The position numbers and the translations under genes were made by a program. DNA of 23,905 nucleotides from a virus. Below, in pieces: positions 4,292-23,640 of this stretch (positions are counted from its first letter, which is position 1; each line of letters begins with the position of its first letter). Location of the stretch: IMG/VR virus record IMGVR_UViG_3300020371_000056, positions 1 to 23,905 of that record; one strand, given 5' to 3'. The notes beneath the pieces are model-generated. The model saw nothing but the letters and a program-made list of their open reading frames with translations, was not told where the DNA came from and did not search any database.

Positions 4292-7200
4292 ATGGCTGTC
4301 TATACCTTTACATCAGGAATAGAATCAGAGTCAGTTGGACAGTATTCCAACTACTTATTGAGCAGCCTTGCAATTAGAACTATTGGATCGTTTACAAAAA
4401 GAACTGCTAGAGGACTTTTTGAATTTATTAGCAGTGAAGAAAGAAGAACATACGCTTATTATCCCGCAGTTGTTGATCTTTATACAGAGATTGACTTCGG
4501 AAACATTCTTTATACTCCACAACCTGTAACAGCAACTGATACCGTACAGGTAGATGATTTAAATGCTACCTTATCAAATACTATTCTGTCAGATTCTGGA
4601 ACAGGAACAGGAACTACTGGCGGATTTAATATTGGTAGACATATTAGATTCAACAGCACAAATAAACCTAGAACGGTAGAGTTCAGTTTACCAAACGATA
4701 TCAATTCTTCACTAACCTTTGAAGTAATTAGAGGTAATGATACCAACGGTGGTGAAGATCCAGATACTGCAGCAGAAAGTTTAAACTTAGAGTATTATGA
4801 TGGAAGTTCATGGACTTCTATTGATACTGTAGTAGCACATAATGACAATACATTCAATACTTTAAAATCTGTAGAGATTACAATTCCTGTTGTAGCGAGA
4901 ACAGCAGGTACACAATTTAGATTAATACAACCAGATCATAGTGGTAATAACTGGGATCATTATGGTTTCAAATCTCTCACATATACTTACACATATACAC
5001 CAACAATTCCATCAAATGATTATGGAAGTATAACTGATCTCAATGCGACTATGGTGGATCATGGTCGTATTGTATATGTAACAACTCAAGAAGCCTTCGG
5101 ATTTGTTAAGGTAGTTAGCGAAGCGTCTTGGAAGGCGACTAACAGTTACGAAGGTACAGGTATTGCGTTTACCTTTGGTAGACAGACTTCTCCCGCCGTA
5201 TACGGTTATATCGTTGATGGAAAGGTCCGAAGTTTCCAACTTTACGGTTCTGCAGATCCAGTATTCTCCCCAAGACCTCAGATTGGGGGGGATACTTCTC
5301 TGCGTGGAAATAGTGCTATTGGAATTGGTCTTGGACACCATGGTAGTGGTGTACTATTCTCACTATCTAATGCATCAGAAAGAAAGATTTATGACTATCC
5401 AGCAACGGTAGGTGGTCTAACTCTTAATGGTAGATGCGAAGACAAATTTACACAGACGATTTCTGGAGAAGGAAATCTATTTACGTTACAGACTGCTGTT
5501 GAGCGTAGCGTATTCAGTTATGACGGATCTGGAGTACTATTCGGATTTGATAACCTTGAAGAATCTGTATGCTACGACTACAATTCTGGATCTGTCGCAG
5601 TATTTGGCAAGGAAGACTACGGATCTATTATTGGATGCACCACCAGTCTTGATATTTCAGGAACGGTATCTGGTGATGCAGGCGCATGTCTAATCAGAGT
5701 AACATTAGGTCAAACTGCAACTGTTGATTCAAGTCAACCATACAGAATTGATCTTCCAGATAATAGTCCAAGCAATTACTTGGATTATGGATTTGTATAT
5801 AACCCTGCAAACCTTGCAATTGATTATGGTCTCATTCTGGTAACTAGTGATCTAGTACCATTTGGACTATTCAGGTTTGATCCTAACGTTGGTGCAGCTG
5901 ATAAGTTCACACCAAACTGGAATGGTAGTGGTACTATCAAGATTTCTGGTAAGACCGAAGTTCCTCTTGACGTTGGTGTATTTGGAACTGGATCCTTTAA
6001 GAAACTTGGCGGTGCGGCAGAGACAGTTGCATTCTCGCAAGAAACAACAGATCTATTCAAGGTACAAGGTTCTAGTGATATTGCCTTCAGACCTAACTGG
6101 ATTGGTCAAGGTGCATTATTCTCTACTTCTGGTGTTGGATTTACAGAGTCTACTACATTCAATCCACCAGAAGATACAGTTCTATTCAACTTTGCTGGAG
6201 CAGGTGAATTCAGCTTCACGCCAAATTGGAATGGATCTGGTGTTCTATTCACTCTACAAACTGCCGTTGAACGTGCAGTATATGATTACGTTGGATCTGG
6301 AAGACTATTTGGATTCAACAATCTTGAAGAACGCAGAACTTATGATTACAACTGTAGTTCTGTCGTTGAATCTAGATATCTGGATTATGGTCTACTTGTT
6401 GACAGAGGAGCTGTCGCAATTACATCTCTCGGAACAATATCAATCTCTACATCAGAGACTGCTCCAACTGGAGGAATCCGAGTAGATCTAGGATCTACAT
6501 TAAGTATTGCTCCAGGCACAACTTATGCGATTCCATCGCAACTTACAACACCACAAACATTCTACGACTATGGTGTTGTTAATGATCTACATGATCCCCT
6601 TGAAGATTATGGATGGATTCTTGGCACTATTGCATCTGGAATGCCAGCGTGCATTTATGGTCAGATTGACATCTTTGGTTCTTCTCATAATGTATTCACC
6701 CCGAATTGGGTTGGTTCTGGTACAACTAGACTCAGCGGTGTTGCTTATGTTCCTCTGGATGCGAAATACCGAGGATTCGGATTTATCAAGAGTCTTGGTG
6801 GTGCAGCAGAAGTTGTTGCATATGCGGAAGAAACAACAGATCTATTCAAGGTACAAGGTTCTGCAGACCCAGCATTTGTTCAACAACACCATGGAGAAGG
6901 AACTCTATTCGGAATTTCTGGCGTTGCAGAAGCAGTTGGATTCAATCCAGTTGATATTACAACTCACATTAGAATTACAGGAACTGCAGGAGATCCAACT
7001 CTCGGATATGCACATGTTGGTAGTGGAACTCTATTCAACTTCTTAGGTCTTGTAGAGAGAGCATCGTTTGATTACGTTGGTTCTGGTGATATCAAACTAC
7101 ATGCAAGAAAACCAGAGATATATCAACTATCTGATCTTGCTGCGTTTACTCTTGATGATTATGTGGTTCAATCAAACTACATTAATCTTGGAGACATTAA

Positions 7201-11349: not shown

Positions 11350-14300
11350 ATGGCAGATTTTAGACTCGGCAGACTAAAGTTTAAGTGGCGCGGTGATTGG
11401 GCGGCGTCTACTGCTTATGTCATTGACGATATTGTCAAGTACGGTGCAAACTCATATGTTTGTACTGTTAATCATACCTCAAACGCTACGGAAACTGGTT
11501 TTTATACCACCGATATCGGATACTTTGATCTCCATACAGAAGGTCTAGAGCAAAAAGGTAACTGGGCACCATCACAGTGGTATACACTTAATGATGTTGT
11601 TAAGTACGGTAATACAATTTATCGTTGTACAACTCCTCATACCTCAGGAAGTTCCTTTGCGTTTGGAAGCTTTGCAGTTTACTCTGAAGGTTTAGTATTT
11701 GAAGATACTTGGGCATCTGGAACTCTTTATCAAAAGGGTGATGTCGTAACGTATGGTGGTTACACATATATTGCCGAGCAAAACTCAACTGGTGTAGCTC
11801 CAAATACAGATACTGCATACTGGAAAGTTCTAACAACTGGTTATCTCTCACAAGGTGAGTATAATTCTGCCGAGGTATATGAACCAGGAAACACCGTTAA
11901 GTATGGTGGTCACACATATGCATGTAAAGTTACTACTAACGATGAAGTCTTAAACCTTGCTTCTGCTAGTGGCGATGGAACTACTGCTACTGCTGTTTTC
12001 CAAACTACTCAACCATCTGCGCCATATGGAATTGGTGATGAAGTTATTGTTGCTGGAATTTCAGAAGCTGCATACAACGGAACAGTTAGAGTAACCGCTT
12101 GTACAACTACTGGATTCTCTTATGCATCTGCAGCTTCTGCAGGTGGAGCAACTGGCGGTACTGCAACATATACTCCAGTTCCTAGCAACACAAGATTCTG
12201 GGATCTAGTTGTTGAAGGTTTCAACTGGACTGGTCAGTGGAATGCTAACTCAGTATATCAACTAGGAGACGTTGTTAATAGAAACGGTAACTCCTATGTT
12301 TGTATTACTTCAAATACTCTAGGCGCGGCAACTGCACCTGAACTTGATTCCAATGGTAATTATTGGAACTACTTGTCGCAGGGTGGTGACGCTGCACAGG
12401 TTCTACAAGATATCGGTGACCTAATCTATCAGGCTGCTGGTGGTATTAACAGAATTGCACTTCCTACGGGTTCAACTGGAACTGCAGCAGAACAAGCAGA
12501 AGCAAGTGGTCAAATTCTAACTGTTGGTGGTTCACCTCTGCTCCCAAGATGGGAAGCAAATAATACTACTGCACCAATTTATTATGTAACTAAAGAAGGT
12601 TCCGACTCAAATAACGGTAGAAGCATTTCTAGAGGTTTTGCTTCACTACGTTATGCTTGCGATAAGATCGCTTCACTTACTGGTTCGGATGCACCATCTG
12701 CTACAAATCCAATCACGATTTACATCAAAGCAGGTGTTTATGACGAAATTCTACCAATCACCGTTCCAGCGCATGTATCTCTTGTTGGTGATAACCTAAG
12801 AACTTCTATCATTCAAGCAGCATCTGGTAGTTCAAATATGCAGGCATTAGTGCTTGCATCTTCACTACAGCATGTTAAGTATGGTGATGTCATTACTAAC
12901 GCTGCAGAAACAAAAACTGCAAAAGTTCTGGATACAGACTATGCAAACAACATTCACCTCCTTAACATTTCAGGCGGAGAATGGGATGCAACAGACAAGT
13001 ATCTAGATATTGTAAGTCACCAGTCTTCAGATGCTAAGAATCTATTAGATGCAAACAGATTGTTTATTGCTCATGAAGCATGGCATAGACTGCAAGCAGT
13101 TGACCCAATCAACACTCCAGTTTCTGGAGATGAAGCAACAGTAAAATCAAGACTTGCAGAATTTGTTGATGCCATGGCATTCAACGTTAAGCATGGTTCT
13201 AATAACAAAGTCTATGATTACATTGTTGATCGTTTAGGTGGTAATGCAATTACTGCAACAGGTCCAGAAGACCGTTCATTGGTTGCTTATATTGAAACCA
13301 TTGCAATCCAAGTTATCAGAAATGAGACTGTTCCTGTAACTTCTGGAAACCTCCAAACTCAAGTCAAAGACTTGACGATTACTCAAGATGTTAATGCACC
13401 TATTTGTGCAACTCAAGCATCTGCAATCTCAACCTTAGTTGGACTTTTTGATACTGCAATTCAGGCAGGTAGTGCAGCGGGAATCACTCAATCACTACCA
13501 CATGTTGATATCAGTTCTGTTTCTACTAGAACTAACGCTGAATCAACAATGCTATACGTTGGTTCTCATACAGTAATCAAGGATATCATCTTCCAGGGAA
13601 TGAGCGGATTTGCTCCATCTGGAATTAATGATAAGGATCTAGATACTTCTACTATCAAAGGTGTATATCTAAGACTTGATCCTGATTCTCCAATTTCTAA
13701 GTCACCATATATCCAAAACTGTGCTGCAATTGGCGGTGCTGCTGTTGGTGTAATGATTGATGGTGGAGTTCACAGTCACTTTGACAATACTTCAACACCA
13801 TCTAACAAGTCAATGGTGTTTGACTCTTTCACACAGATTCTTGACAATGGTGTTGGTTTCTATGTAACTAGAGGTGCTGCTTCTGAGATTGTATCCTGCT
13901 TCACTTACTACGCACATATTTCATACTCCTCAACTAGAGGTGGTAAGATCCGTGCTGTTTCTGGTAACTCTTCTTATGGTAAGTATGGTTGTATCTCTAG
14001 AGGATTTGACGCTACCGAAGCAACTATTGATGGTAATGTTAAAGGTCTTAAGTTAGAATTTGATCCCCAACAACCAAAAGATGGTACTTTCACTAACGGA
14101 GAAAGAATTGTTGGTGGAACTTCAGGTGCTGTAGGTGAACTAATTAATACTCAAGAAGGCGTTAGTAAAATTTACTTCTTCCCAATTACAGGATCGTTCG
14201 TTCAAAATGAGACTGTTACTGGATCTACATCTGGTGCATATGTAACTACAACTAATAATACAAGTGCTCTAGAAGGTCAAAAAGGATTCATTCTCACAGT

Positions 14301-16041
14301 TGAAGGTCTATCATCTGCTCCAGACCAAGGCGGTTCTGTTGAACTTCAAGATAATGGAGTTAATAATGATGCTGGATCATATGTTATTTCAAACTCTAGT
14401 TATACCGCTCCTGATGGCAGAGGTACACTTACAGTTGAAAGAGGTAAGTTAGCATCATCCCCAGCATCACACACTGGTACTACAAACTTTGACCTATTCG
14501 GTTTTGTTGATGTAGCAGATCCTAGCGTTGCAGGTCAACCAACAACACTAGATACTACGGTTGATGATTCAACGACAACACTGAATGTCAACCAAGTTTC
14601 TGGTATGACAGGAACCAGTTATATCATCATTGGAACTGAGATGATGAGAGTTACTGGATTCGGTGGTGGTACTCAAATTACAGTTGATCGTGGTGTTGAA
14701 GGAACTACTGCTTCATCTCACGCAGCAACTTCAAATGTAACTGTTCTTTCAAGTAAGGCAGTTGGTCATGATGAAATTATTGAAGACTTTAGTGCTGCAT
14801 CAACTGCAGTTAGAATTGCTCAAGCAAACGTCATTGTTAAAGCACAAGACTACATCAAAGTAGATAATGAATTCTTCCGTATTACTGCAGTAGCTCCAGA
14901 TGCAACTGGTATTGTAACGTTATTCTTCTCCGACGAGAAGGTAATTGCTGCTGGTGATGGTCAGGACTTTAAGATTCGCTATCGTTACTCTCAAGTTAGA
15001 CTAACCGCTCACGACTTCCTAGATGTTGGTACTGGTGATAAGGCAAATACTAACTGGCCTTTCCTACCAAATTCACCAAATGTTCCAGATCAGGAAACTG
15101 ATGAAGATCGCCCAGGTCGTGTTTACTATGTTTCTACTGACCAAGATGGTAACTTTGCGGTTGGTAAGTACTTTAGAGTTGAACAGGCAACTGGTAAGGC
15201 AACCCTAGACGCTTCTGCGTTTGACCTTTCTGGTCTATCAACCTTGAGACTGGGTGCTATTGGTGCTCAATTGGGTGCAACTATTGATGAATTCTCAACT
15301 GATGTAACTCTATCTCAAAATAGTAACAGTAAAGTTCCAACACAAAGAGCAGTTAAGACATATATTGACGCTCTAAGTGGTGTTGTTGGAGACTTCTCTG
15401 TTGCGGGTAACCTAACTGTTAATGGAACTACAACTTCAGTTCAATCGGTTACTGTTGAAGCAAAAGATCGCAACATTACTCTAGGTAATGTTTCTACTGG
15501 AAACTTTACTGGTGATGTTACTGGAAATACAAACCAAATCACTAATGTTAATGACACTACAAATCTAGCTCCTGGAGTAGTAGTTACTCTAACAGGTGCT
15601 GGTGGTTCAAACGTTACTCTTGCTACAAACGTAAAAGTTACTGCAGTTAGTGGAACTACGGTAACGATCTCCGAAAACTTTGGTGGATCAGATTCAGTTC
15701 AGGGTGCAACATTTAGTGCTGGTGGTGCGACAGACTTCACTGCAAACACTGGTGGTATTACCATTCTTGGTACAACCAACAAAGAAATTTCTTGGTTGTC
15801 TTCTAACGATGCATTCAATATTTCCGAGAACATCAATCTTGCTGATGGCAAGAAGTTGATGATTGACGGAACTGAAGTTGTAACTGAGACCACTGTACTA
15901 GGATTTAGTTTCAGTACAGATACTACTCTCGGTGGCGCATCTCCAAGTAACACACTTGCTCCTTCACAAGCAGCAGTTAAGTCTTACGTGGATGCTGCAG
16001 ACCGTGTTACCGCAATCAACTATTACCTATCGGCAATTTGA
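11350..16041 (+). CDS. 1563-residue tail fibre/baseplate adhesin: CBM-like repeats, beta-helix, fibre C-terminus
   Basis: Residues 12-330 contain five modules of the chitin-binding CBM5/12 pattern 'W-x(5)-Y-x-x-x-D-x-V-x-Y-G-x-x-Y-x-C/A' (near 14-40, 71-95, 119-160, 168-195, 293-325). The fourth is split by an unrelated insert (about 200-290, containing GIGDEVIVAGISEAAYNGT). From 411 (YYVTKEGSDSNNG) a pectin-lyase-like right-handed beta-helix begins (IYIKAGVYDE, VSLVGDN). A helical insert interrupts it at about 550-700, and it resumes to about 900. Further phage beta domains follow: FTNGERIVGGTSGA near 914, and GTEMMRVTGF with VDRGVEGTTASSHA near 1100. The C-terminus carries TQRAVKTYIDA (1331) and NLTVNGTTTSVQS, as in trimeric fibre ends. 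AAGGA at 11337-11341 is a good ribosome binding site. Polysaccharide binding is inferred; no lyase active site is identified. Confidence 0.82.
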   Translation: MADFRLGRLKFKWRGDWAASTAYVIDDIVKYGANSYVCTVNHTSNATETGFYTTDIGYFDLHTEGLEQKGNWAPSQWYTLNDVVKYGNTIYRCTTPHTSGSSFAFGSFAVYSEGLVFEDTWASGTLYQKGDVVTYGGYTYIAEQNSTGVAPNTDTAYWKVLTTGYLSQGEYNSAEVYEPGNTVKYGGHTYACKVTTNDEVLNLASASGDGTTATAVFQTTQPSAPYGIGDEVIVAGISEAAYNGTVRVTACTTTGFSYASAASAGGATGGTATYTPVPSNTRFWDLVVEGFNWTGQWNANSVYQLGDVVNRNGNSYVCITSNTLGAATAPELDSNGNYWNYLSQGGDAAQVLQDIGDLIYQAAGGINRIALPTGSTGTAAEQAEASGQILTVGGSPLLPRWEANNTTAPIYYVTKEGSDSNNGRSISRGFASLRYACDKIASLTGSDAPSATNPITIYIKAGVYDEILPITVPAHVSLVGDNLRTSIIQAASGSSNMQALVLASSLQHVKYGDVITNAAETKTAKVLDTDYANNIHLLNISGGEWDATDKYLDIVSHQSSDAKNLLDANRLFIAHEAWHRLQAVDPINTPVSGDEATVKSRLAEFVDAMAFNVKHGSNNKVYDYIVDRLGGNAITATGPEDRSLVAYIETIAIQVIRNETVPVTSGNLQTQVKDLTITQDVNAPICATQASAISTLVGLFDTAIQAGSAAGITQSLPHVDISSVSTRTNAESTMLYVGSHTVIKDIIFQGMSGFAPSGINDKDLDTSTIKGVYLRLDPDSPISKSPYIQNCAAIGGAAVGVMIDGGVHSHFDNTSTPSNKSMVFDSFTQILDNGVGFYVTRGAASEIVSCFTYYAHISYSSTRGGKIRAVSGNSSYGKYGCISRGFDATEATIDGNVKGLKLEFDPQQPKDGTFTNGERIVGGTSGAVGELINTQEGVSKIYFFPITGSFVQNETVTGSTSGAYVTTTNNTSALEGQKGFILTVEGLSSAPDQGGSVELQDNGVNNDAGSYVISNSSYTAPDGRGTLTVERGKLASSPASHTGTTNFDLFGFVDVADPSVAGQPTTLDTTVDDSTTTLNVNQVSGMTGTSYIIIGTEMMRVTGFGGGTQITVDRGVEGTTASSHAATSNVTVLSSKAVGHDEIIEDFSAASTAVRIAQANVIVKAQDYIKVDNEFFRITAVAPDATGIVTLFFSDEKVIAAGDGQDFKIRYRYSQVRLTAHDFLDVGTGDKANTNWPFLPNSPNVPDQETDEDRPGRVYYVSTDQDGNFAVGKYFRVEQATGKATLDASAFDLSGLSTLRLGAIGAQLGATIDEFSTDVTLSQNSNSKVPTQRAVKTYIDALSGVVGDFSVAGNLTVNGTTTSVQSVTVEAKDRNITLGNVSTGNFTGDVTGNTNQITNVNDTTNLAPGVVVTLTGAGGSNVTLATNVKVTAVSGTTVTISENFGGSDSVQGATFSAGGATDFTANTGGITILGTTNKEISWLSSNDAFNISENINLADGKKLMIDGTEVVTETTVLGFSFSTDTTLGGASPSNTLAPSQAAVKSYVDAADRVTAINYYLSAI
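11385..12330 (+). repeat. Five CBM5/12-like modules encoded in tandem
   Basis: The modules are recognisable in protein, not as DNA repeats. Each has W, then AYVIDDIVKYG, WYTLNDVVKYG, LYQKGDVVTYG, VYEPGNTVKYG or VYQLGDVVNRNG, then a Y-x-C/A strand. Unit four holds an inserted domain, so spacing is irregular there. Confidence 0.65.
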
Positions 16042-16047
16042 TTGCAA

Positions 16048-16055
16048 TATAAATA
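16048..16055 (+). promoter_or_regulatory. T4-type late promoter box (TATAAATA)
   Basis: An exact TATAAATA lies in the gap after the 1563-residue gene. The predicted start near 16061 gives a leader of about 39 bases carrying the GGGAGAG ribosome binding site. It could also drive the first adhesin cassette, which lacks its own clear box. Confidence 0.65.
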
Positions 16056-16099: not shown

Positions 16100-16420
16100 A
16101 TGGCTTCAGGAGTGTACTCAAAGGTAGACGTTTCTAACGCTACTACATGGACAGCAGTTGTTGCTGCTCCATCATCAGGAACAAAAGTAACGACACTAAA
16201 CATCGTTAACCGTACTGCAGGTTCGGCAACAATTCGTGTTGCGCTTGCATCTGCTGCAGGTTCTGTAACCGATGCAGACTGTATTGAATATGATGTTTCT
16301 CTCCCTGCTAACGGAGTTTTAGAAAGAACTGGTATTGTTCTAGACAGCAATAACGGTCTTCACGTTTATTCAAGTGTTGCTGGTCTTAGTGCTGTTGCAT
16401 ACGGTATTGACGGTAATTGA
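16100..16420 (+). CDS. Small Ig-like virion protein
   Basis: This 106-residue all-beta protein has alternating strands: VTTLNIVNRTAGSATIRVAL, a D-C-I-E-Y-D-V-S-L strand, and PANGVLERTGIVLD before HVYSS. The pattern resembles a short protein widespread in marine phages (Pelagibacter and cyanobacterial) near tail and neck genes, whose function is not established. GGGAGAG at 16089-16095 is a strong ribosome binding site 5-6 bases before the ATG, and an exact late promoter box lies 45 bases upstream, so high late expression is plausible. It may be a capsid or tail decoration or a small fibre tip. No trimerisation or enzymatic motif is visible. Confidence 0.7.
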   Translation: MASGVYSKVDVSNATTWTAVVAAPSSGTKVTTLNIVNRTAGSATIRVALASAAGSVTDADCIEYDVSLPANGVLERTGIVLDSNNGLHVYSSVAGLSAVAYGIDGN

Positions 16421-16456: not shown

Positions 16457-17941
16457 ATGGCAAGAAAACTTACAACCAAGCCAGCGGTAAATGCCGTAAG
16501 GACAATTGATCCTTTCCACCAACCTTGCTTTACTACTTATAGTTATGAGTATTCTGCAGGTGGTGGCGGATTCATTTCATATGATCATAACTTGAATGTC
16601 ACCTCAATGAACCGTGGTGATGGCAACCAATCATATGGAATGTGGAGAACGTATACCACTGCTGGTTACGAGTTTTTTGATGCTTGGGCAAACACAGAAT
16701 ATAATGAAACTACCTCACATGCTTCTTCTCACAGTCAACGTGCAAGTCAAACAAATCAAGTTGGATATCTAGGTCACCAAAGGTTTACTTCATCTTCTTG
16801 CAGAACACAAACAGGTTCTTGGCCTGTAGGTGGATCAGGAGCTAGTTCCTATAGAGCAAATGCATTCCGTGATGTCATGGTTCTTGCGGGTGAAACTCAT
16901 CAAGATTATGCAATTTTTGGACATCATAATGGTGGTACTGGAACTAGATTCACTGTTCATGAAAGATCTGCATCAATGTATTATCATGCATTTAACCATG
17001 ATAATGGATCTGAATGTAATATTCCAATTAAAGAATCTGGATACGAGGGAATGTATGGCACTGGTTGCTATAACAAGAAGAATCAAAAACTTCTTATTAT
17101 GGAAGGTAATGGATCTGGAAAATTCAAACCAGTTGTTTGGAGTAATGTTCCTGATTTAAGAGCACTATCACACTCTGATGGCGCATCATATGCAAACGTA
17201 GAAGAGCGTTATGCAGCATATACTGAATCCAATACCTTCATGCAAGCGTATTTCAATACAGATTCTAATGCTGATTATGCTACTTATGAAACAGGTCCTT
17301 CAACAACACTAAACAATTATAGTAGTGCTGGTGAAACAAATTGGAGAGGATGCCCAGTTCTTCATGATAATGGCATGATTTCATATTTTGTATTCATGCC
17401 AGGATATGGATCTTACTTCACTCAGTGGGACGCATCTGGTAATAATCAAGGAGAACTTCATAGATATAACCATAGTCAAACATCATATGGTTATGAACAG
17501 GGTGCATCTTATGGAATGAGATGGCAGTGTAGTTCCGATGGAAGATATGTTTGGGCATATGCACCAACATACTACTATGGTTCGGGATGGACTGGTGTCT
17601 TTATGAGAGTTTCTGACGGTAAGTGGCTATGGTTTGATTATAATGATACTACTTATGGATTCCAAACTTGTCCATTAGGAAAATCAAGTATTTTCGTCAA
17701 CTTAACATACAACACTGATGGCGGTCATGGAATGTATCACATTGTTCATGACTTAGATTATGAGTTTAGCAGAAGATCTAATGGAGAAAACTGGGACAAT
17801 TTCTTCAATCAGGCATTAACTCAACTCATTGATACTGCATATTATAGCACTTCATATCCTGGATTAATTCCTGCTACTTACGATACCTCTTTGTTCTCAA
17901 CTCCTCATCTTTCAACATCTCTCCCAGATGTTCAATACTGA
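16457..17941 (+). CDS. Probable host-recognition adhesin, cassette copy 1
   Basis: This 494-residue protein is rich in Tyr, Asn, Ser and Gly with little predicted helix. It is paralogous to the 495-residue protein at 18570: the first 230 residues align without gaps, with about 125 identities by hand count (54%). Shared blocks are RTIDP (15-19), DHNLN (43-47), ETTSHASSHS (84-93), QVGYLGHQ (101-108), HNGGTGT (157-163), CNIPI-x-ESGY (187-195) and FKPVVWSNVPDLR (223-235). Later blocks are SYGYEQG, SDGRYVWAY, YYYGSG, GKSS and SYPG. Recurrent G-x-Y-W strands such as SDGRYVW suggest a beta-propeller or similar all-beta fold, which is a guess. ATAAGG at 16441-16446 precedes the ATG. Its small partner gene follows 25 bases later. 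An adhesin role is inferred from composition, location and duplication. Confidence 0.72.
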   Translation: MARKLTTKPAVNAVRTIDPFHQPCFTTYSYEYSAGGGGFISYDHNLNVTSMNRGDGNQSYGMWRTYTTAGYEFFDAWANTEYNETTSHASSHSQRASQTNQVGYLGHQRFTSSSCRTQTGSWPVGGSGASSYRANAFRDVMVLAGETHQDYAIFGHHNGGTGTRFTVHERSASMYYHAFNHDNGSECNIPIKESGYEGMYGTGCYNKKNQKLLIMEGNGSGKFKPVVWSNVPDLRALSHSDGASYANVEERYAAYTESNTFMQAYFNTDSNADYATYETGPSTTLNNYSSAGETNWRGCPVLHDNGMISYFVFMPGYGSYFTQWDASGNNQGELHRYNHSQTSYGYEQGASYGMRWQCSSDGRYVWAYAPTYYYGSGWTGVFMRVSDGKWLWFDYNDTTYGFQTCPLGKSSIFVNLTYNTDGGHGMYHIVHDLDYEFSRRSNGENWDNFFNQALTQLIDTAYYSTSYPGLIPATYDTSLFSTPHLSTSLPDVQY

Positions 17942-17966
17942 TAGTTAATTTACTAACATAAAACCA

Positions 17967-18515
17967 ATGGCATTTTTAGTTTACAGCTTACCCTCTAAGC
18001 AAGTCGTCTTTGCTGGTGATACTAAACCCGTGTGGGCAGATGATTCGGTTGAATTAGATGGAGAAATTATTCCTACTTATAAAGTATTTGAGCAGGATTA
18101 CGATTCTTCAGAAGTTGCTGTTACTTCTTTAAAATTATCTGAAGACGGTAACTCTTTAGTAAATGCCTATCCAGGAAAAACTGTAGCAGAACAAAGAGCA
18201 GCATTTGATGCTGAAAGAGAAACCGCTCGTTTAGAAGAATTGCGAGATACAATTAAAAAAACAATCAAAGCTACATGCAGAGATTTACTTGAGACTCCAG
18301 ATTTTAAATGGAAGATTAAAAAAGCAAAGGAAACTGATGCATTTAATGGCAACAGTGATGCACTAACTGCGGTATATGCAGAAAGAAAAGCAATTAGAGA
18401 CAAAAATAATGAGTTGGAAACAAAGTTAGCTAATACTCCAACTAGCGGGTTGGAAAACTTTGATTATGAAGGATATGGAGAGGAAATTAGTATCTCGCTC
18501 CAGCAGTCTCAATAA
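17967..18515 (+). CDS. Small adaptor/assembly-factor candidate, cassette copy 1
   Basis: This 182-residue protein has a beta-like N-terminus (MAFLVYSL), an E-L-D-G-E turn, and NAYPGKT at 66-72 followed by EQR at 75-77. A strongly charged helical, possibly coiled-coil region spans about 75-125, followed by N-x-DALTAVYAERKAIRD (129-145). It is paralogous to the protein at 20091, which shares M-F-V-Y-L-like starts, NAYPGKT, EQR, N-x-DA-x-x-AV and E+xAIRD. Each copy directly follows one adhesin paralogue, so the two genes probably act as a pair. The arrangement recalls phage tail-fibre and fibre-assembly chaperone pairs, but no known chaperone family is recognised. It ends with a Gln/Ser tail and a DYEGYGEE segment absent from copy 2. 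No good ribosome binding site is seen. Confidence 0.68.
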   Translation: MAFLVYSLPSKQVVFAGDTKPVWADDSVELDGEIIPTYKVFEQDYDSSEVAVTSLKLSEDGNSLVNAYPGKTVAEQRAAFDAERETARLEELRDTIKKTIKATCRDLLETPDFKWKIKKAKETDAFNGNSDALTAVYAERKAIRDKNNELETKLANTPTSGLENFDYEGYGEEISISLQQSQ

Positions 18516-18520
18516 TATTT

Positions 18521-18528
18521 TATAAATA
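18521..18528 (+). promoter_or_regulatory. T4-type late promoter box (TATAAATA)
   Basis: An exact TATAAATA lies between the two cassettes. The predicted start near 18534 gives a leader of about 36 bases with AAAGG at 18556-18560. This would let the second adhesin/adaptor pair be transcribed independently of the first. Confidence 0.65.
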
Positions 18529-18569
18529 TCAAGAAGATACTACCTCCAACTTTATAAAGGCATATAGAA

Positions 18570-20057
18570 ATGGCTAGACGCATTACAGAAAAGGCAAAAG
18601 TTTCGGCACAAAGAACGATTGACCCATGGTCTCAACCATGCTTTGCCTCATACACCTGGGAGCACAGTTCTTATGGTGGTGGTTGGATGTTGTATGATCA
18701 TAATTTGAACTGCATCGCAGCATTGAAAGGCGATGGCAACCAAGCATATAGTTCTTTTAGATCTTATACTTCTGGAGCCAGTGAATTCTGTGATAACTAT
18801 GCATCTGCAGAATATCAAGAAACTACTTCCCATGCTTCTTCTCACAGTAGAAGAGCTGGGATGATTAACCAAGTTGGGTATCTAGGTCACCAAAACTTTA
18901 CTCCAGCAGCTACTAGATGGGGTAACACTGGTGGATGGATGTGTGGAAACTCCGCACAGAGCTATAGAGGACATATGTTCAGGGATGTTATTCCCCTTCC
19001 AAATGAAAAGTATCAAGATTATGCAGTTACGCTGCAGCATAATGGTGGTACTGGTACATTGATTCATTGTATGCCTAGATCGGCAAACCTCTATTATCAC
19101 TATGCTCTTCATGATCATAGCTGGAGATGTAATATTCCTATTCAAGAATCTGGATACCAGGGAATGTATGGTGCTGGTTCATATAACAGAAGTAAGAAAC
19201 AACTTCTTGTTATGGAAACTTCTACTAATTATACATTCAAACCTGTTGTTTGGTCTAATGTTCCTGACCTCAGAGAAATTTCTGAGAGAGGTGCGAGTGG
19301 AGTTTATAAAGATATGCCAGAGCAATATAATGGTCGTGGACAGTATGACAATAGACTTCAAACATACTTTAACGATAGCAATAACGCTGATACCACAACT
19401 TATGATGTCTCCACTACTGCTAGTAACAATTACTCTAGTGCGAATGAAGCCAATTATAGAGGAATTGCTACCTTGTGTGATGATGGGCAGATTTATTTCT
19501 TCCAGATGACTCCTGATGATGGTGCTATTCTTCACCACTGGGATGCTTCTGGAAGCTATCAAGGTGTTATCATGCACCAAGAACACAACAATACTTCATA
19601 TGGTTATGAGCAGGGTGTATCATATGGAGCAAGATGGAATCAAACTTCCGATGGAAGATATATTTGGAAGTACTGTGCATCATATTACTATGGTTCAGGT
19701 GGACATTTTGTAGCTTTAAGAGTTAAGGATGGAAAGTATCTGACTTGGTGGACTTCCGATACCAATTATGCTCGTCAAACTTGCCCAATTGGCAAGTCTA
19801 GTGTTTGTGTATTTGCTGATTATAATGCTGATGGTGGAGCTGGATTGTATAATAATGTCATTGATTTAGAAAAGAGATTTGCAACTCTGGAAAATGGATC
19901 AGGCAATCTCAATATGGAAACTAGTTGGCTCACTCAATTGGTTGATACTCCATCCAATACAACTTCATATCCTGGGATGGTTCCACTCATGTATGATACT
20001 TCACTGTTTACTTCAGAAACTGAGTTGCTCAGCACTTACTGGAGATCCCAAGACTAA
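18570..20057 (+). CDS. Probable host-recognition adhesin, cassette copy 2
   Basis: This 495-residue paralogue of the protein at 16457 keeps the same conserved blocks in the same register through residue 230. The central region (about 240-330) and several surface-like segments differ strongly, including 111-130 and 164-170. It keeps TSYGYEQG, SDGRYIW, YYYGSG, CPIGKSS, N-x-DGGAG and SYPGMVP..YDTSLF. Cysteines near 48, 74 and 125 are unlike copy 1. Unlike copy 1 it has its own late promoter box (18521) and AAAGG ribosome binding site 9 bases before the ATG. Conserved core blocks with divergent intervening segments fit receptor-binding proteins under selection, but ligand and virion position are unknown. 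A non-adhesive structural role such as a tail or neck whisker is an alternative. Confidence 0.72.
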   Translation: MARRITEKAKVSAQRTIDPWSQPCFASYTWEHSSYGGGWMLYDHNLNCIAALKGDGNQAYSSFRSYTSGASEFCDNYASAEYQETTSHASSHSRRAGMINQVGYLGHQNFTPAATRWGNTGGWMCGNSAQSYRGHMFRDVIPLPNEKYQDYAVTLQHNGGTGTLIHCMPRSANLYYHYALHDHSWRCNIPIQESGYQGMYGAGSYNRSKKQLLVMETSTNYTFKPVVWSNVPDLREISERGASGVYKDMPEQYNGRGQYDNRLQTYFNDSNNADTTTYDVSTTASNNYSSANEANYRGIATLCDDGQIYFFQMTPDDGAILHHWDASGSYQGVIMHQEHNNTSYGYEQGVSYGARWNQTSDGRYIWKYCASYYYGSGGHFVALRVKDGKYLTWWTSDTNYARQTCPIGKSSVCVFADYNADGGAGLYNNVIDLEKRFATLENGSGNLNMETSWLTQLVDTPSNTTSYPGMVPLMYDTSLFTSETELLSTYWRSQD

Positions 20058-20090
20058 ATATAATATATAAGTATAAAGGATTTAATAACC

Positions 20091-20588
20091 ATGTTCGTAC
20101 TTTACGACCTAAAACACGATAGAGTCACTCAAATTTCTGATGAAGTAATTCCAGATCCAGAATTACATGCAAATCAGTCAACCGTTCGTTTTAAGTGCGT
20201 AGAGACTGATATTGATTTATCAGAGAATTTAATTGCGGCACTGAGACTAGACTCGGATGGTGAAACTATTATCAATGCATATCCTGGTAAAACTAAATCT
20301 GAACAGCGTGAACTAGCAGAAGCAGAAGAAAGAGCAGTTACTACCCAAAGAAGAAAAGGAGAACTTGAAAGAGCTATTAGAGCAGAAGTGTTCGCTAGAT
20401 TAGAAAATCTAGACTGGAAAAATGAAAGAGCAGAAGAATTAGATTTTCTTGCTGGTAATAATGATGCTACTGCAGCAGTGCAGGTAGAAAAGCAGGCAAT
20501 TAGAGATGCTGGAAACGCAAAAGTTACTGAATTAAATGCGCTTTCAACTATGGAAGAACTTAATGCATTTAAACCAAGAAAATTCTAA
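20091..20588 (+). CDS. Small adaptor/assembly-factor candidate, cassette copy 2
   Basis: This 165-residue paralogue of the protein at 17967 starts MFVLYDL, has NAYPGKT at 62-68 and EQR at 71-73. A highly charged Glu/Arg/Ala-rich segment at about 70-120, probably helical, leads into NNDATAAVQVEKQAIRD (123-139) and a short helical tail ending KPRKF. The dipartite plan, a small beta head plus a charged helix, suits a protein that docks onto a partner and may help fold or attach it. AAAGGA at 20075-20080 is a clear ribosome binding site 10 bases before the ATG. The gene is followed by a perfect terminator hairpin before gp13. The chaperone or adaptor role is inferred from pairing alone. Confidence 0.7.
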   Translation: MFVLYDLKHDRVTQISDEVIPDPELHANQSTVRFKCVETDIDLSENLIAALRLDSDGETIINAYPGKTKSEQRELAEAEERAVTTQRRKGELERAIRAEVFARLENLDWKNERAEELDFLAGNNDATAAVQVEKQAIRDAGNAKVTELNALSTMEELNAFKPRKF

Positions 20589-20608: not shown

Positions 20609-20616
20609 TATAAATA
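20609..20616 (+). promoter_or_regulatory. T4-type late promoter box (TATAAATA) for gp13
   Basis: An exact TATAAATA overlaps the left edge of the terminator stem. By T4 geometry, transcription would begin near 20622, so the transcript would lack almost all of the left arm (20612-20623) and could not form the hairpin. The leader would be about 21 bases. Confidence 0.65.
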
Positions 20617-20642: not shown

Positions 20643-21446
20643 ATGGCTCAGCCTGCAAGTAGGACCGAGCTAAGGGACTATTGTCTTAGACAGTTAGGGT
20701 TCCCAGTTCTGGAAGTCAACGTAGACGACGATCAAATTGATGATGCGATTGATGACGCACTTCAATACTATCGCGAGCGTCACTACGATGGCGTTGAGCA
20801 TATGTACCTCAAGCATCTGTTCACTGCTGCAGATGAAACTAAGTTTGAAACTTCCGATACTGTAACTACAGTTAACGGAACTGATTGGGAAGAAAGAAAT
20901 AGATATATTGATATCCCACCTCATGTCATGGGTATCTCTAGAGTTTTTGGACTTGCAAGTAATGCAATCAGAAACAATTTATTTGGTATTGAGTATCAAA
21001 TTTTTCTAAACGATCTATACGCAGTCGGTTCTCTTGACATGCTTAACTATTATATGGTTAAGCAATGGATGGAAACTATTGATATGGTTCTGAACAATGG
21101 ATCGTTTGTTCAGTATAGATTTAACCAACGTCAAGATAGATTATATCTAGATGTTGGTAAAGATATGCTTGATGAAGATGTATTTGTAATTATTGATTGC
21201 TACAGAGCATTAGATCCAGAAACTTTTACTCAGGTTTATAACGATCCATTTGTCAAGAAGTATGCAACTGCATTGCTCAAACGTCAATGGGGACAGAACT
21301 TAATTAAGTTCAATGGTATTCAACTTCCTGGTGGTGTCAGCATGAATGGCAGACAATTATATGATGATGCAGAAAAAGAAATTGCTTTGCTAATGGAGAA
21401 GTCCAGTAGCACATATGAATTGCCCCCAATGGATATGATCGGATGA
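20643..21446 (+). CDS. gp13: Neck protein gp13
   Basis: This 267-residue homologue of T4 gp13 (somewhat shorter than the T4 protein) is the neck protein that, with gp14, completes filled heads so that tails can attach. The start MAQPASRTELRDYCLRQLG, the acidic helix NVDDDQIDDAIDDALQYYRE, and the closing YELPPMDMIG are typical of cyanophage gp13. Other recognisable stretches are DIPPHVMGISRVFG and VKKYATALLKRQWGQNLIKF. The ATG at 20643 directly follows a terminator T-tract with no Shine-Dalgarno sequence, yet the conserved N-terminus makes it the likely start. The stop overlaps the gp14 start (ATGA), so gp13-gp16 look translationally coupled. The order gp13-14-15-16 is that of T4. Confidence 0.92.
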   Translation: MAQPASRTELRDYCLRQLGFPVLEVNVDDDQIDDAIDDALQYYRERHYDGVEHMYLKHLFTAADETKFETSDTVTTVNGTDWEERNRYIDIPPHVMGISRVFGLASNAIRNNLFGIEYQIFLNDLYAVGSLDMLNYYMVKQWMETIDMVLNNGSFVQYRFNQRQDRLYLDVGKDMLDEDVFVIIDCYRALDPETFTQVYNDPFVKKYATALLKRQWGQNLIKFNGIQLPGGVSMNGRQLYDDAEKEIALLMEKSSSTYELPPMDMIG

Positions 21447-22843
21447 AAAAGGTTTACTTCCCACAACATGGCGGAAACAGGACCGAACAGAATCTCGTAC
21501 AAGATCTCGTGGACGAGCAAATCAAATTGTTTGGTGCTGATGTATTTTATATACCTAGAACCCAATTAGTAGATAAAACTTTGGGTGAAGTTATTCAGTC
21601 AGAATTCAATCAAAGTTACATGATTGAAATGATGCTGGTTAATGTAGAAGGGTTTGGTGCTGGTTCTGAGTTCGTAAGTAAGTTTGGACTAAGAATTACA
21701 GATGAAATTACCTTTGTAGTTTCACGTAGACGATGGGAACAATCTGCAAATCCTGCTTTAAACCTAGCAGTAGATGGCAGACCCAATGAAGGAGATCTAG
21801 TTTACTATCCTCTAACAGAAGATATATACGAAATCAAATATGTTGAAAGAGAACAACCATTCTTCCAACTGGGAAAACAGTATTTTTATATTCTTACTGC
21901 AGAGCTCTACGAGCAAGGCGCGGACAAGTTTGACACAGGACTTGACGAAATTGACGATATTGAAAGAGAGTTCAGCAACATCACCACCCTTAATCTTGGT
22001 CTTACTACCAGACAACAAGCTACTGGAACAGCTAGCGTTGATTCAGGTGGTTCAATCATTGGAGCAAATGTAACTCTTGCTGGCACTGGATACAATACAG
22101 CACCTTCAGTATCTGTCTCAGGTGGTGGTGGAGTAGGAGGAATTATTGAATCAACTATTCGCGATGGCGGTGTAGTATCTTTATCAGTTGTCAATGGAGG
22201 ATCTGGATATTCTTCAAATCCAACCATTACCATTGATGCTCCACCAGAAGCGATTAACTTTATTAAAGATGAGCATGTCGTAATTGGAGGATTTGTAAAT
22301 CAGGGTTCTAATAGAAACTGGACATCATCCAATAGTGTAATTAATGTAACTGCACTTGGTGGATTTGATCCAAACTTTGCAACAACAACTCAAACTAAGT
22401 ATTTCTATTGGAAGTTTGAAGATACACGAATCTCCTATGTGTACACATACAATGGTACTGATGCAACTACAGTTCCTGGTTTCTTTTATTACGACACAGC
22501 AAACTTACAGTATGTAATCAATGCATATACTGACACCAGCACTAGTGGTCAAAGAGCATCAATGTATGATCTCACCAGTGCCACAATTGCGGAAGTTGCA
22601 GATTGGAATGGGGTTGATTATACCCTAGAGGTTATGAATCGTACAGGTAACTTCATTGATGGTGACATGATTCGCGGAGTTGAATCTAATGCGATATATA
22701 CATTAGGAACATTCTCCACAATTAATAACACAAGCACTGAATTTGATCAGAATCAATCAATTGAAGATGGTGCAGACGATATTATTGACTGGGGTGAAAG
22801 AAACCCCTTCGGTGAATTTGGTAATTTTACAGGTAGCTTCTGA
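21443..22843 (+). CDS. gp14: Neck protein gp14, enlarged by inserted domains
   Basis: This is the partner of gp13 in the head-tail neck. Residues 1-190 form the conserved part: KKVYFPQHGGNRTEQNLVQD, GADVFYIPRT, YMIEMMLVNVEGF, FGLRITDEITFVVSRRRWE, and the EGDLVYYPLTEDIYEIKYVE strand. The conserved end is EDGADDIIDWGERNPFGEFG. Between them lie extra beta domains. One is a Gly-rich pair of GTGY (214-217) and GSGY (253-256) repeats, each followed by a proline strand, known as a mobile decoration in marine phage tail proteins. Another spans about 285-430, with TRISYVYTYNG and MNRTGNFIDGDMIRG. The total of 466 residues far exceeds T4 gp14 (about 256). Start and stop both overlap neighbouring genes. 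Confidence 0.9.
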   Translation: MKKVYFPQHGGNRTEQNLVQDLVDEQIKLFGADVFYIPRTQLVDKTLGEVIQSEFNQSYMIEMMLVNVEGFGAGSEFVSKFGLRITDEITFVVSRRRWEQSANPALNLAVDGRPNEGDLVYYPLTEDIYEIKYVEREQPFFQLGKQYFYILTAELYEQGADKFDTGLDEIDDIEREFSNITTLNLGLTTRQQATGTASVDSGGSIIGANVTLAGTGYNTAPSVSVSGGGGVGGIIESTIRDGGVVSLSVVNGGSGYSSNPTITIDAPPEAINFIKDEHVVIGGFVNQGSNRNWTSSNSVINVTALGGFDPNFATTTQTKYFYWKFEDTRISYVYTYNGTDATTVPGFFYYDTANLQYVINAYTDTSTSGQRASMYDLTSATIAEVADWNGVDYTLEVMNRTGNFIDGDMIRGVESNAIYTLGTFSTINNTSTEFDQNQSIEDGADDIIDWGERNPFGEFGNFTGSF

Positions 22844-23640
22844 TGTTAGGAACACAATTTTATAACGAAGCGGTTAGAAAAACCGTAATCGCTTTCGGAA
22901 CATTATTCAACAACATTGAACTGAAGAAGACTGTTGATGGTCAAACAATTGAGACTGAAAAAGTCCCACTTGCTTATGGTCCTAAGCAGAAATTTCTTTA
23001 CAGACTTCAAGGAAATACTTCCGATGGTAGGAAAGTAGCAATTACTTTGCCAAGAATTTATTTTGAAATGACTAGTATTGATTATGATGGTGCAAGAAAA
23101 ACCGCTGCGCTACAAAAATATAAAACAGTTATTGACGATAATGGTAACGAAGTAAAAACTCAATTTGTTCCCGTTCCATATAACATAGGATTTGAAGTAG
23201 GTATTATCGCTAAGTCGCAAGACGATGGTTTACAGATCATGGAACAGATTTTACCATTCTTCCAACCATCTCTAAATGTAAGTATTAAATTCATCCCAGA
23301 CATGAATGAAGTTAGAGATGTTGCGTTTGTTCTAAACAGCGTAAACATGGAAGATGATTGGGAAGATGACTTTACTACAAGAAGGTCTATTACATATACT
23401 CTATCGTTTACCGCTAAGTCTTACATCTACGGTCCTTACACTAAGGCAGATGTTATTCGTAAGGCACGTGTCATTGAAACCATTGGAGACGCTGAAGTTA
23501 ATAAGCGACATGTTGAATTGTCATACACTCCAAAAGCAACTGTTGATTACAACCAAGACGGTCAGGTTGATGCTGCCGATGATGCATTCGTAACAGCAGA
23601 TGATGACTTCGGATTTAATGAGGGGATGGAGTTCTTATGA
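22843..23640 (+). CDS. gp15: Tail completion and sheath stabiliser protein gp15
   Basis: This 265-residue homologue of T4 gp15 (272) caps the finished tail as a hexamer and joins it to the neck. Shared features are a GTQFYNEAVRKTVIAFGTLF start (T4: YFYNSSFRRYATLMGDLFSN-like), a NIELKK strand, P-L-A-Y-G-P-K-Q-K-F, TLPRIYFEM, V-P-V-P-Y-N-I-G-F-E-V, IMEQILPFFQPSLNVSIKFI, and D-D-F-T-T-RRSITYTLSF with a final YIYGPY strand. Residues about 225-265 extend past the core and contain an EF-hand/dockerin-like loop, DYNQDGQVDAADD (235-247). The start overlaps the gp14 stop (TGATG) and the stop overlaps the gp16 start. Confidence 0.93.
   Translation: MLGTQFYNEAVRKTVIAFGTLFNNIELKKTVDGQTIETEKVPLAYGPKQKFLYRLQGNTSDGRKVAITLPRIYFEMTSIDYDGARKTAALQKYKTVIDDNGNEVKTQFVPVPYNIGFEVGIIAKSQDDGLQIMEQILPFFQPSLNVSIKFIPDMNEVRDVAFVLNSVNMEDDWEDDFTTRRSITYTLSFTAKSYIYGPYTKADVIRKARVIETIGDAEVNKRHVELSYTPKATVDYNQDGQVDAADDAFVTADDDFGFNEGMEFL

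Follow-up and report, generated by a model that had tools for sequence, protein, structure and literature searches.

The window analysed here is a 23,905-nucleotide stretch of viral DNA (positions 1 to 23,905 of the IMG/VR virus record IMGVR_UViG_3300020371_000056). Between its tail fibre gene and its neck genes lies a cassette of four genes, two for large proteins (ADH) and two for small partners (PAR), in the order ADH-PAR-ADH-PAR. The features of the region are:

11350-16041, + strand: tail fibre, 1563 aa (phrog_9851 tail fibre, 1230 bits)
16048-16055, + strand: TATAAATA late-promoter motif before the 106-aa gene and the first pair (consensus match only)
16100-16420, + strand: 106-aa protein between fibre and cassette (phrog_11338 tail fibre, E=2.7e-4)
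16457-17941, + strand: AdhA, ADH copy 1, 494 aa, predicted propeller-like receptor-binding protein
17967-18515, + strand: ParA, PAR copy 1, 182 aa, chaperone-like partner
18521-18528, + strand: TATAAATA late-promoter motif before the second pair (consensus match only)
18570-20057, + strand: AdhB, ADH copy 2, 495 aa
20091-20588, + strand: ParB, PAR copy 2, 165 aa
20609-20642, + strand: TATAAATA (motif at 20609) fused to an intrinsic-terminator hairpin directly before gp13; cassette boundary
20643-21446, + strand: gp13 homologue, neck protein (head-tail adaptor; phrog_211, E=5.6e-48)
21443-22843, + strand: gp14 homologue, neck protein (head closure; phrog_460, E=1.4e-117; Pfam T4_neck-protein)
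22843-23640, + strand: gp15 homologue (tail sheath stabiliser; phrog_227, E=6.1e-93)

All four ORFs of the cassette lie where an earlier note on this DNA had placed two proteins of ~495 residues, each followed by a small partner, and the presence of orthologues in many other contigs indicates that these ORFs are real genes. AdhA and AdhB are identical at 257 of 492 positions (52%; 8 gap positions, E=5e-170). The first 230 residues, described before as gapless, are nearly so (two compensating 1-residue gaps), and the homology reaches far beyond them, the alignment spanning the entire proteins. ParA and ParB, which are 35% identical across 152 residues (E=8e-25), both carry the NAYPGKT..EQR and E(R/K)xAIRD motifs on which their proposed paralogy was based, and they belong to one family.

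The tail fibre, which has five CBM_5_12 stretches (Pfam, E=1.3e-25), is encoded 5′ of the cassette in the core loci with enough sequence for synteny to be read. The 106-aa protein shows 37-39% identity to S-CAM3 gp160 and PSSM2_302, has the equivalent position in S-CAM3 and P-SSM2, and is a possible adaptor. T4-like relatives share the order fibre, 106-aa gene, one or two ADH-PAR pairs and gp13-gp14-gp15, and most of the IMG/VR relatives carry the cassette between the tail fibre gene and gp13-gp14-gp15. The gp14 and fibre genes of the window have their closest counterparts in cyanophages (S-PM2, Syn1, S-CAM3, and P-SSM2 among them), which places the window in a T4-like phage near Kyanoviridae. 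Moreover, the 193-kb contig of one relative carries two photosystem reaction-centre genes, and that relative is thus a cyanophage; the host of the window phage itself is probably a cyanobacterium. The window gp14 is 466 aa long compared with about 292 aa in S-PM2 and Syn1, and its residues about 174-300 make up an additional, glycine-rich domain with matches to PHROGs of the baseplate and virion-structural kinds.

In marine T4-like phages, the region between VrlC and gp14 has been named the host recognition cluster [PMC7029224]. In S-CAM3 and P-SSM2, the homologue of the 106-aa gene follows the tail fibre and, further on, there are two or three tandem cysteine-rich paralogues, while S-SSM7 has three such paralogues directly after the fibre. 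The paralogues in this slot (loci L031, L032, and L035) are cysteine-rich and glycine-rich, unrelated to ADH and PAR, and 56-60% identical among themselves in S-SSM7 and 38% in P-SSM2. The recurrence of duplicated proteins of different families is the behaviour expected of a host-recognition slot. However, in experimental evolution of the cyanophage S-TIM4 the mutations did not fall preferentially in hypervariable regions [PMC6224464], a result that cautions against over-reading the slot as a host-recognition site. Two genes after the tail fibre of Pelagibacter phage Mosig (516 and 136 aa) were considered as the same pair and discarded, neither giving a profile match.

All three TATAAATA sites are consensus matches to the T4-type late promoter, whose core ATAAATA shows a weak enrichment in the whole window, with 10 occurrences compared with 5.7 expected, a count that 6 of 100 shuffles reach. 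Among the relatives, TATAAATA is kept before the 106-aa gene in most and before gp13 in most or all, while its presence before the second pair is confined to the window clade, L003, and L005. It is present in three of the 16 distinct partner-to-adhesin spacers of relatives (L001, L003, and L005) and absent from 13; hence the promoter of its own that was ascribed to the second pair, and that the motif at 18521-18528 would provide in the window, is missing in most relatives and is a local feature, not one general to the duplication. The T-run of the hairpin before gp13 ends at the gp13 start codon (fold -16.5 kcal/mol, z -5.4). The fusion of motif and terminator is kept in 32 of 32 distinct PAR/gp13 spacers (one of which the annotated start truncates), with the two arms mostly changing in step, and Syn1 and S-PM2 (L029 and L030) have GATAAATA in the hairpin loop before gp13 instead. 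In this arrangement, the terminator would stop read-through from upstream but spare late RNA initiated within the left arm. Immediately upstream of the 2061-aa gene at 4292, the spacer holds a further hairpin with a T-run (GGGGGTTGCAATTTGCAATCCCCATTTTTT).

Relatives of the cassette were gathered by IMG/VR scans with single proteins and with alignments, and dozens were found. As the finds are pattern-based and some contigs are near-identical, the counts given here are of distinct sequences and not frequencies in nature. Among the distinct ADH of the core family, PAR comes directly next in 65 cases and a second ADH and then PAR in five, and two ADH lie at contig ends. Likewise, all 64 testable PAR are preceded by ADH (two more lie at contig starts), and a separate PAR search in IMG/VR gave no PAR outside an ADH context where the context was visible. 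The distinct locus layouts comprise 17 ADH-PAR-ADH-PAR, 24 ADH-PAR (including some two-copy loci that are truncated, for example L001 and L062) and five ADH-ADH-PAR, such that one-copy and two-copy versions both exist alongside a large-large-partner order. In the five loci with this last order (L075, L076, and L080-L082), the first and the second ADH each form one clade within the group. The layout implies that a dedicated partner gene is not required for each large protein, and it suggests that a single PAR can serve two ADH. The obligate pair proposed earlier therefore holds in that no core ADH was found without PAR, while a strict one-to-one relationship fails in these five loci. A scan of genome contigs returned one contig, L117 (WTIV01000013.1), with a two-copy cassette; despite its binning as a Euryarchaeota MAG, it is a phage contig, since the locus adjoins the same fibre gene. 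In the one-copy loci L066 and L067, a hairpin (GGGTCAC..GTGACCC) lies between ADH and PAR.

Other phages encode ADH relatives that are more distant, with 27-36% identity along part of the protein. In three of their loci (L091, L092, and L094), an ORF of 92-97 aa with a similar linker motif directly follows the first ADH; it is the sole match to the PAR profile in each locus, and a weak one (E=3e-4 to 0.02), and the second ADH is followed by a small protein unrelated to PAR. In L085, L087, L088, L089, and L095, ADH is followed by a different protein of about 150-175 aa. Thus, the position behind the adhesin retains a small gene even when this gene belongs to a different family. The locus L091, with its two distant ADH, also encodes a Phage_tail_APC chaperone (positions 1973-2350, E=3e-16) after another structural gene; together with the differing small partners of ADH, this indicates that a single fibre region holds more than one type of partner.

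In the ADH tree, the first copies stand apart from the second copies in most two-copy loci, which argues for an old duplication. AdhA and AdhB of the window are, by contrast with this split, sisters (SH-aLRT 99). The AU test disfavours placing AdhB with the other second copies (p=0.012, for a group defined only once the tree was known), and neither grouping of the window copies is rejected by the PAR tree. As the group was post hoc and the PAR tree does not resolve it, the window copies may have arisen either by an independent duplication in the window lineage or through gene conversion.

Compared with the nearest relatives, the amino-acid identity of the window proteins is 80-89% for ADH and PAR, 95.5% for the fibre, and 98.9-100% for gp13-gp15. 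At the nucleotide level, the identity goes from about 96% to 82-95% over 16.5-20.5 kb and then to about 99% at gp13, and dS is 0.20-0.39 in the cassette genes versus 0.01-0.19 in the flanking genes. By these figures, which rest on one close pair of genomes, the four cassette genes are the fastest-diverging block of the neighbourhood. Since the synonymous differences are raised as well, exchange with other phages probably contributes; with dS raised and dN/dS staying below 0.4, positive selection is not shown. ADH is accordingly a fast-diverging gene within a host-recognition region, as a receptor-binding protein would be.

What kind of protein is ADH? Sequence searches against Pfam, PHROGs, PDB sequences, and cultured phages gave no significant match, and a tblastn search of 50,697 cultured phage records turned up neither ADH nor PAR. 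The ADH of one relative gave weak hits to Arthrobacter terminases (E at least 0.02), which were taken as chance. The ADH model, built from 27 sequences (pTM 0.82, pLDDT 73), shows strands in successive groups of three to four. Its best Foldseek matches in the PDB are Photorhabdus propeller lectins (E=3.5e-5), among 29 matches at E<=0.001. When the structural neighbours were re-aligned, those on top were mostly propellers (lectins, sialidases, and others), with Z at most 8.7, a value that can reflect merely a common arrangement, and TM-scores of about 0.3. A search for internal blade repeats with hhalign gave none that was significant. We regard a propeller-like fold, closest to the propeller lectins, as probable for ADH, with modest confidence in view of the TM-scores, the Z values, and the absence of a significant repeat.

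Searches with PAR against Pfam, PHROGs, NCBIfam, PDB sequences, and cultured phages matched no named family. There is a match to phrog_26358, of unknown function (E=6.7e-8 for L080), and there are weak matches to the tail-fibre families phrog_1348 (E=2.8e-4) and phrog_8716 (E=0.044); the profiles of phrog_26358, phrog_1348, and PAR gave no match in whole cultured cyanophage and pelagiphage records. In the AlphaFold model of ParB (pLDDT 90), five strands (residues 2-6, 11-16, 34-38, 51-53, and 60-62) and a short helix (23-26) form residues 2-62 and are followed by four helices (69-159). The mean identity among PAR is 43% at residues 107-150 versus 25% at residues 1-58. A Foldseek search of the PDB with the PAR model gave no significant match, although the Pam3 complex is deposited there as 7YPX, and re-alignment of the fold matches covered only helical hairpins of unrelated proteins. 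PAR thus has, in the ParB model, the two-domain layout of tail-fibre assembly chaperones (an N-terminal strand domain and a helical C-terminal domain), and it is encoded directly after its presumed client gene, as in all 64 testable cases above. A profile match to a Tfa-type family is lacking: none of Tfa, Caudo_TAP, Phage_tail_APC, and DUF4376 is among the Pfam matches listed at E<=1 for 27 partners, and hhalign aligned PAR with Phage_tail_APC at a non-significant probability of 6% on 16 columns. We therefore liken PAR to a chaperone by layout and gene order and do not claim membership in a family.

Collectively, we favour, with somewhat better than even confidence, an explanation in which each cassette encodes a receptor-binding protein (ADH) together with a dedicated partner (PAR) that serves it as an intermolecular folding chaperone or as a transient cap. 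The pairing of a receptor-binding protein with a folding factor had been suggested before, and it is the best reading given the inseparable gene order, the location in a host-recognition region, and the fast divergence. In this model, the predicted N-terminal strand domain of PAR is joined via the conserved YPGKT/EQR linker to the predicted four-helix domain, through which PAR would oligomerise. The variable N-terminal domain would hold the nascent ADH until folding and mounting are complete (the 106-aa protein perhaps attaching ADH to the fibre), after which PAR would leave or stay as a cap. ADH would then bind a surface glycan or protein of the probably cyanobacterial host. Two diverged copies could give the virion two specificities or a mixed tip, and dual receptor specificity is a plausible outcome. 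A propeller is not obviously in need of a trimerising chaperone, which counts against this explanation.

Alternatively, PAR might not be a transient chaperone but a permanent part of the structure, either an adaptor by which ADH is mounted on the fibre or baseplate or a subunit of the tip. The inseparable order of ADH and PAR is what such a part would also show, and there are precedents: Mu Tfa remains on its fibre, and the Mu and Ur-lambda chaperones are present in mature phages [PMC9608196]. However, the five loci in which two ADH share a single PAR speak more for a reusable helper than for a stoichiometric mount, and the distant relatives keep only a short form that resembles the N-terminal part of PAR. 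We consider the permanent adaptor unlikely, if worth keeping in mind.

In T4, gene 12 and wac lie directly before gp13. As the cassette occupies this very place, its products could be neck or collar appendages that replace T4 fibritin or the short fibres in function, as the earlier note had considered, and not tail-fibre tips. The gene order agrees with that idea, but no homology of ADH or PAR to fibritin or gp12 was found in Pfam or PHROGs (a Collar match in one ADH member, E=0.41, is not significant), the ADH model is without the long helix typical of a coiled-coil fibre, and the terminator cuts the cassette transcription unit from gp13 in all core loci examined, all of which makes such appendages improbable. 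We give equally little credence to ADH being a polysaccharide-degrading enzyme with a propeller catalytic domain and not a pure binder. Several of its structural neighbours are propeller glycosidases, lyases, and sialidases, and endosialidases of the K1F type are trimeric propellers on a stem [PMC4901313], yet it is lectins and not one enzyme family that lead the structural lists, no catalytic motif was identified in ADH, and there is no match to an enzyme family in Pfam or PHROGs.

Little is known of host recognition in T4-like marine phages, and host range is difficult to deduce from sequence. The ADH-PAR unit is a recurrent, hypervariable, and self-contained cassette of adhesin and helper, with no relative among the cultured phages searched. 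It provides a concrete gene pair to test and, for uncultured cyanophage-like contigs, names a block of proteins that had lacked annotation. Its one-copy, two-copy, and shared-partner variants allow asking whether a phage receptor-binding protein chaperone is client-specific. More tentatively, and in our view doubtful as a whole, the locus may represent an undescribed device: paired, diverged propeller adhesins, each with its own chaperone of a new family, one chaperone being able to serve two adhesins, and a mixed propeller tip with two specificities. As part of that reading, the chaperone family would have converged on the Tfa layout or diverged from it beyond recognition.

How does the cassette compare with known systems? 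The host recognition cluster of marine T4-like phages is a hypervariable island with tail fibres, and the window cassette lies at its neck-gene end; the available part of PMC7029224 describes this cluster as a region and not as an ADH-PAR gene pair. The Photorhabdus lectins PLL and PHL, the best Foldseek neighbours of the ADH model, are cellular lectins with about 8% identity to ADH and TM-scores of 0.3-0.4. Among phages, Gp45 of phi11 is a receptor-binding protein with a propeller that probably binds sugar; unlike ADH, it is five-bladed, with stem and tower domains [PMC4901313], and it ranks 40 in the Foldseek list for ADH (probability 0.25) with no sequence similarity to it. In the literature searched, no propeller receptor-binding protein of a cyanophage was found.

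For the pair as a whole, the myocyanophage Pam3 offers a fibre protein, gp24, with a partner of ~160 aa, gp25 [PMC9608196]. Sequence, profile, and fold searches gave no link to this pair, and no duplicated cassette is described for Pam3 [PMC9608196]. Residues 1-55 of gp25 (162 aa) form a five-strand sandwich with one short helix, residues 64-162 form a four-helix domain that trimerises, and the N-terminus is variable while the C-terminus is conserved [PMC9608196]. Compared with this published description, and in layout only, PAR agrees with gp25 in length, element order, and linker position. The Alteromonas phages V22 and A5 have a tail fibre with a chaperone of the DUF4376 type, whereas PAR matches neither DUF4376 nor Phage_tail_APC; the likeness lies in their adjacent genes for a receptor-binding protein and its chaperone, which constitute a transferable host-recognition module [PMC7289586, PMC10579305].
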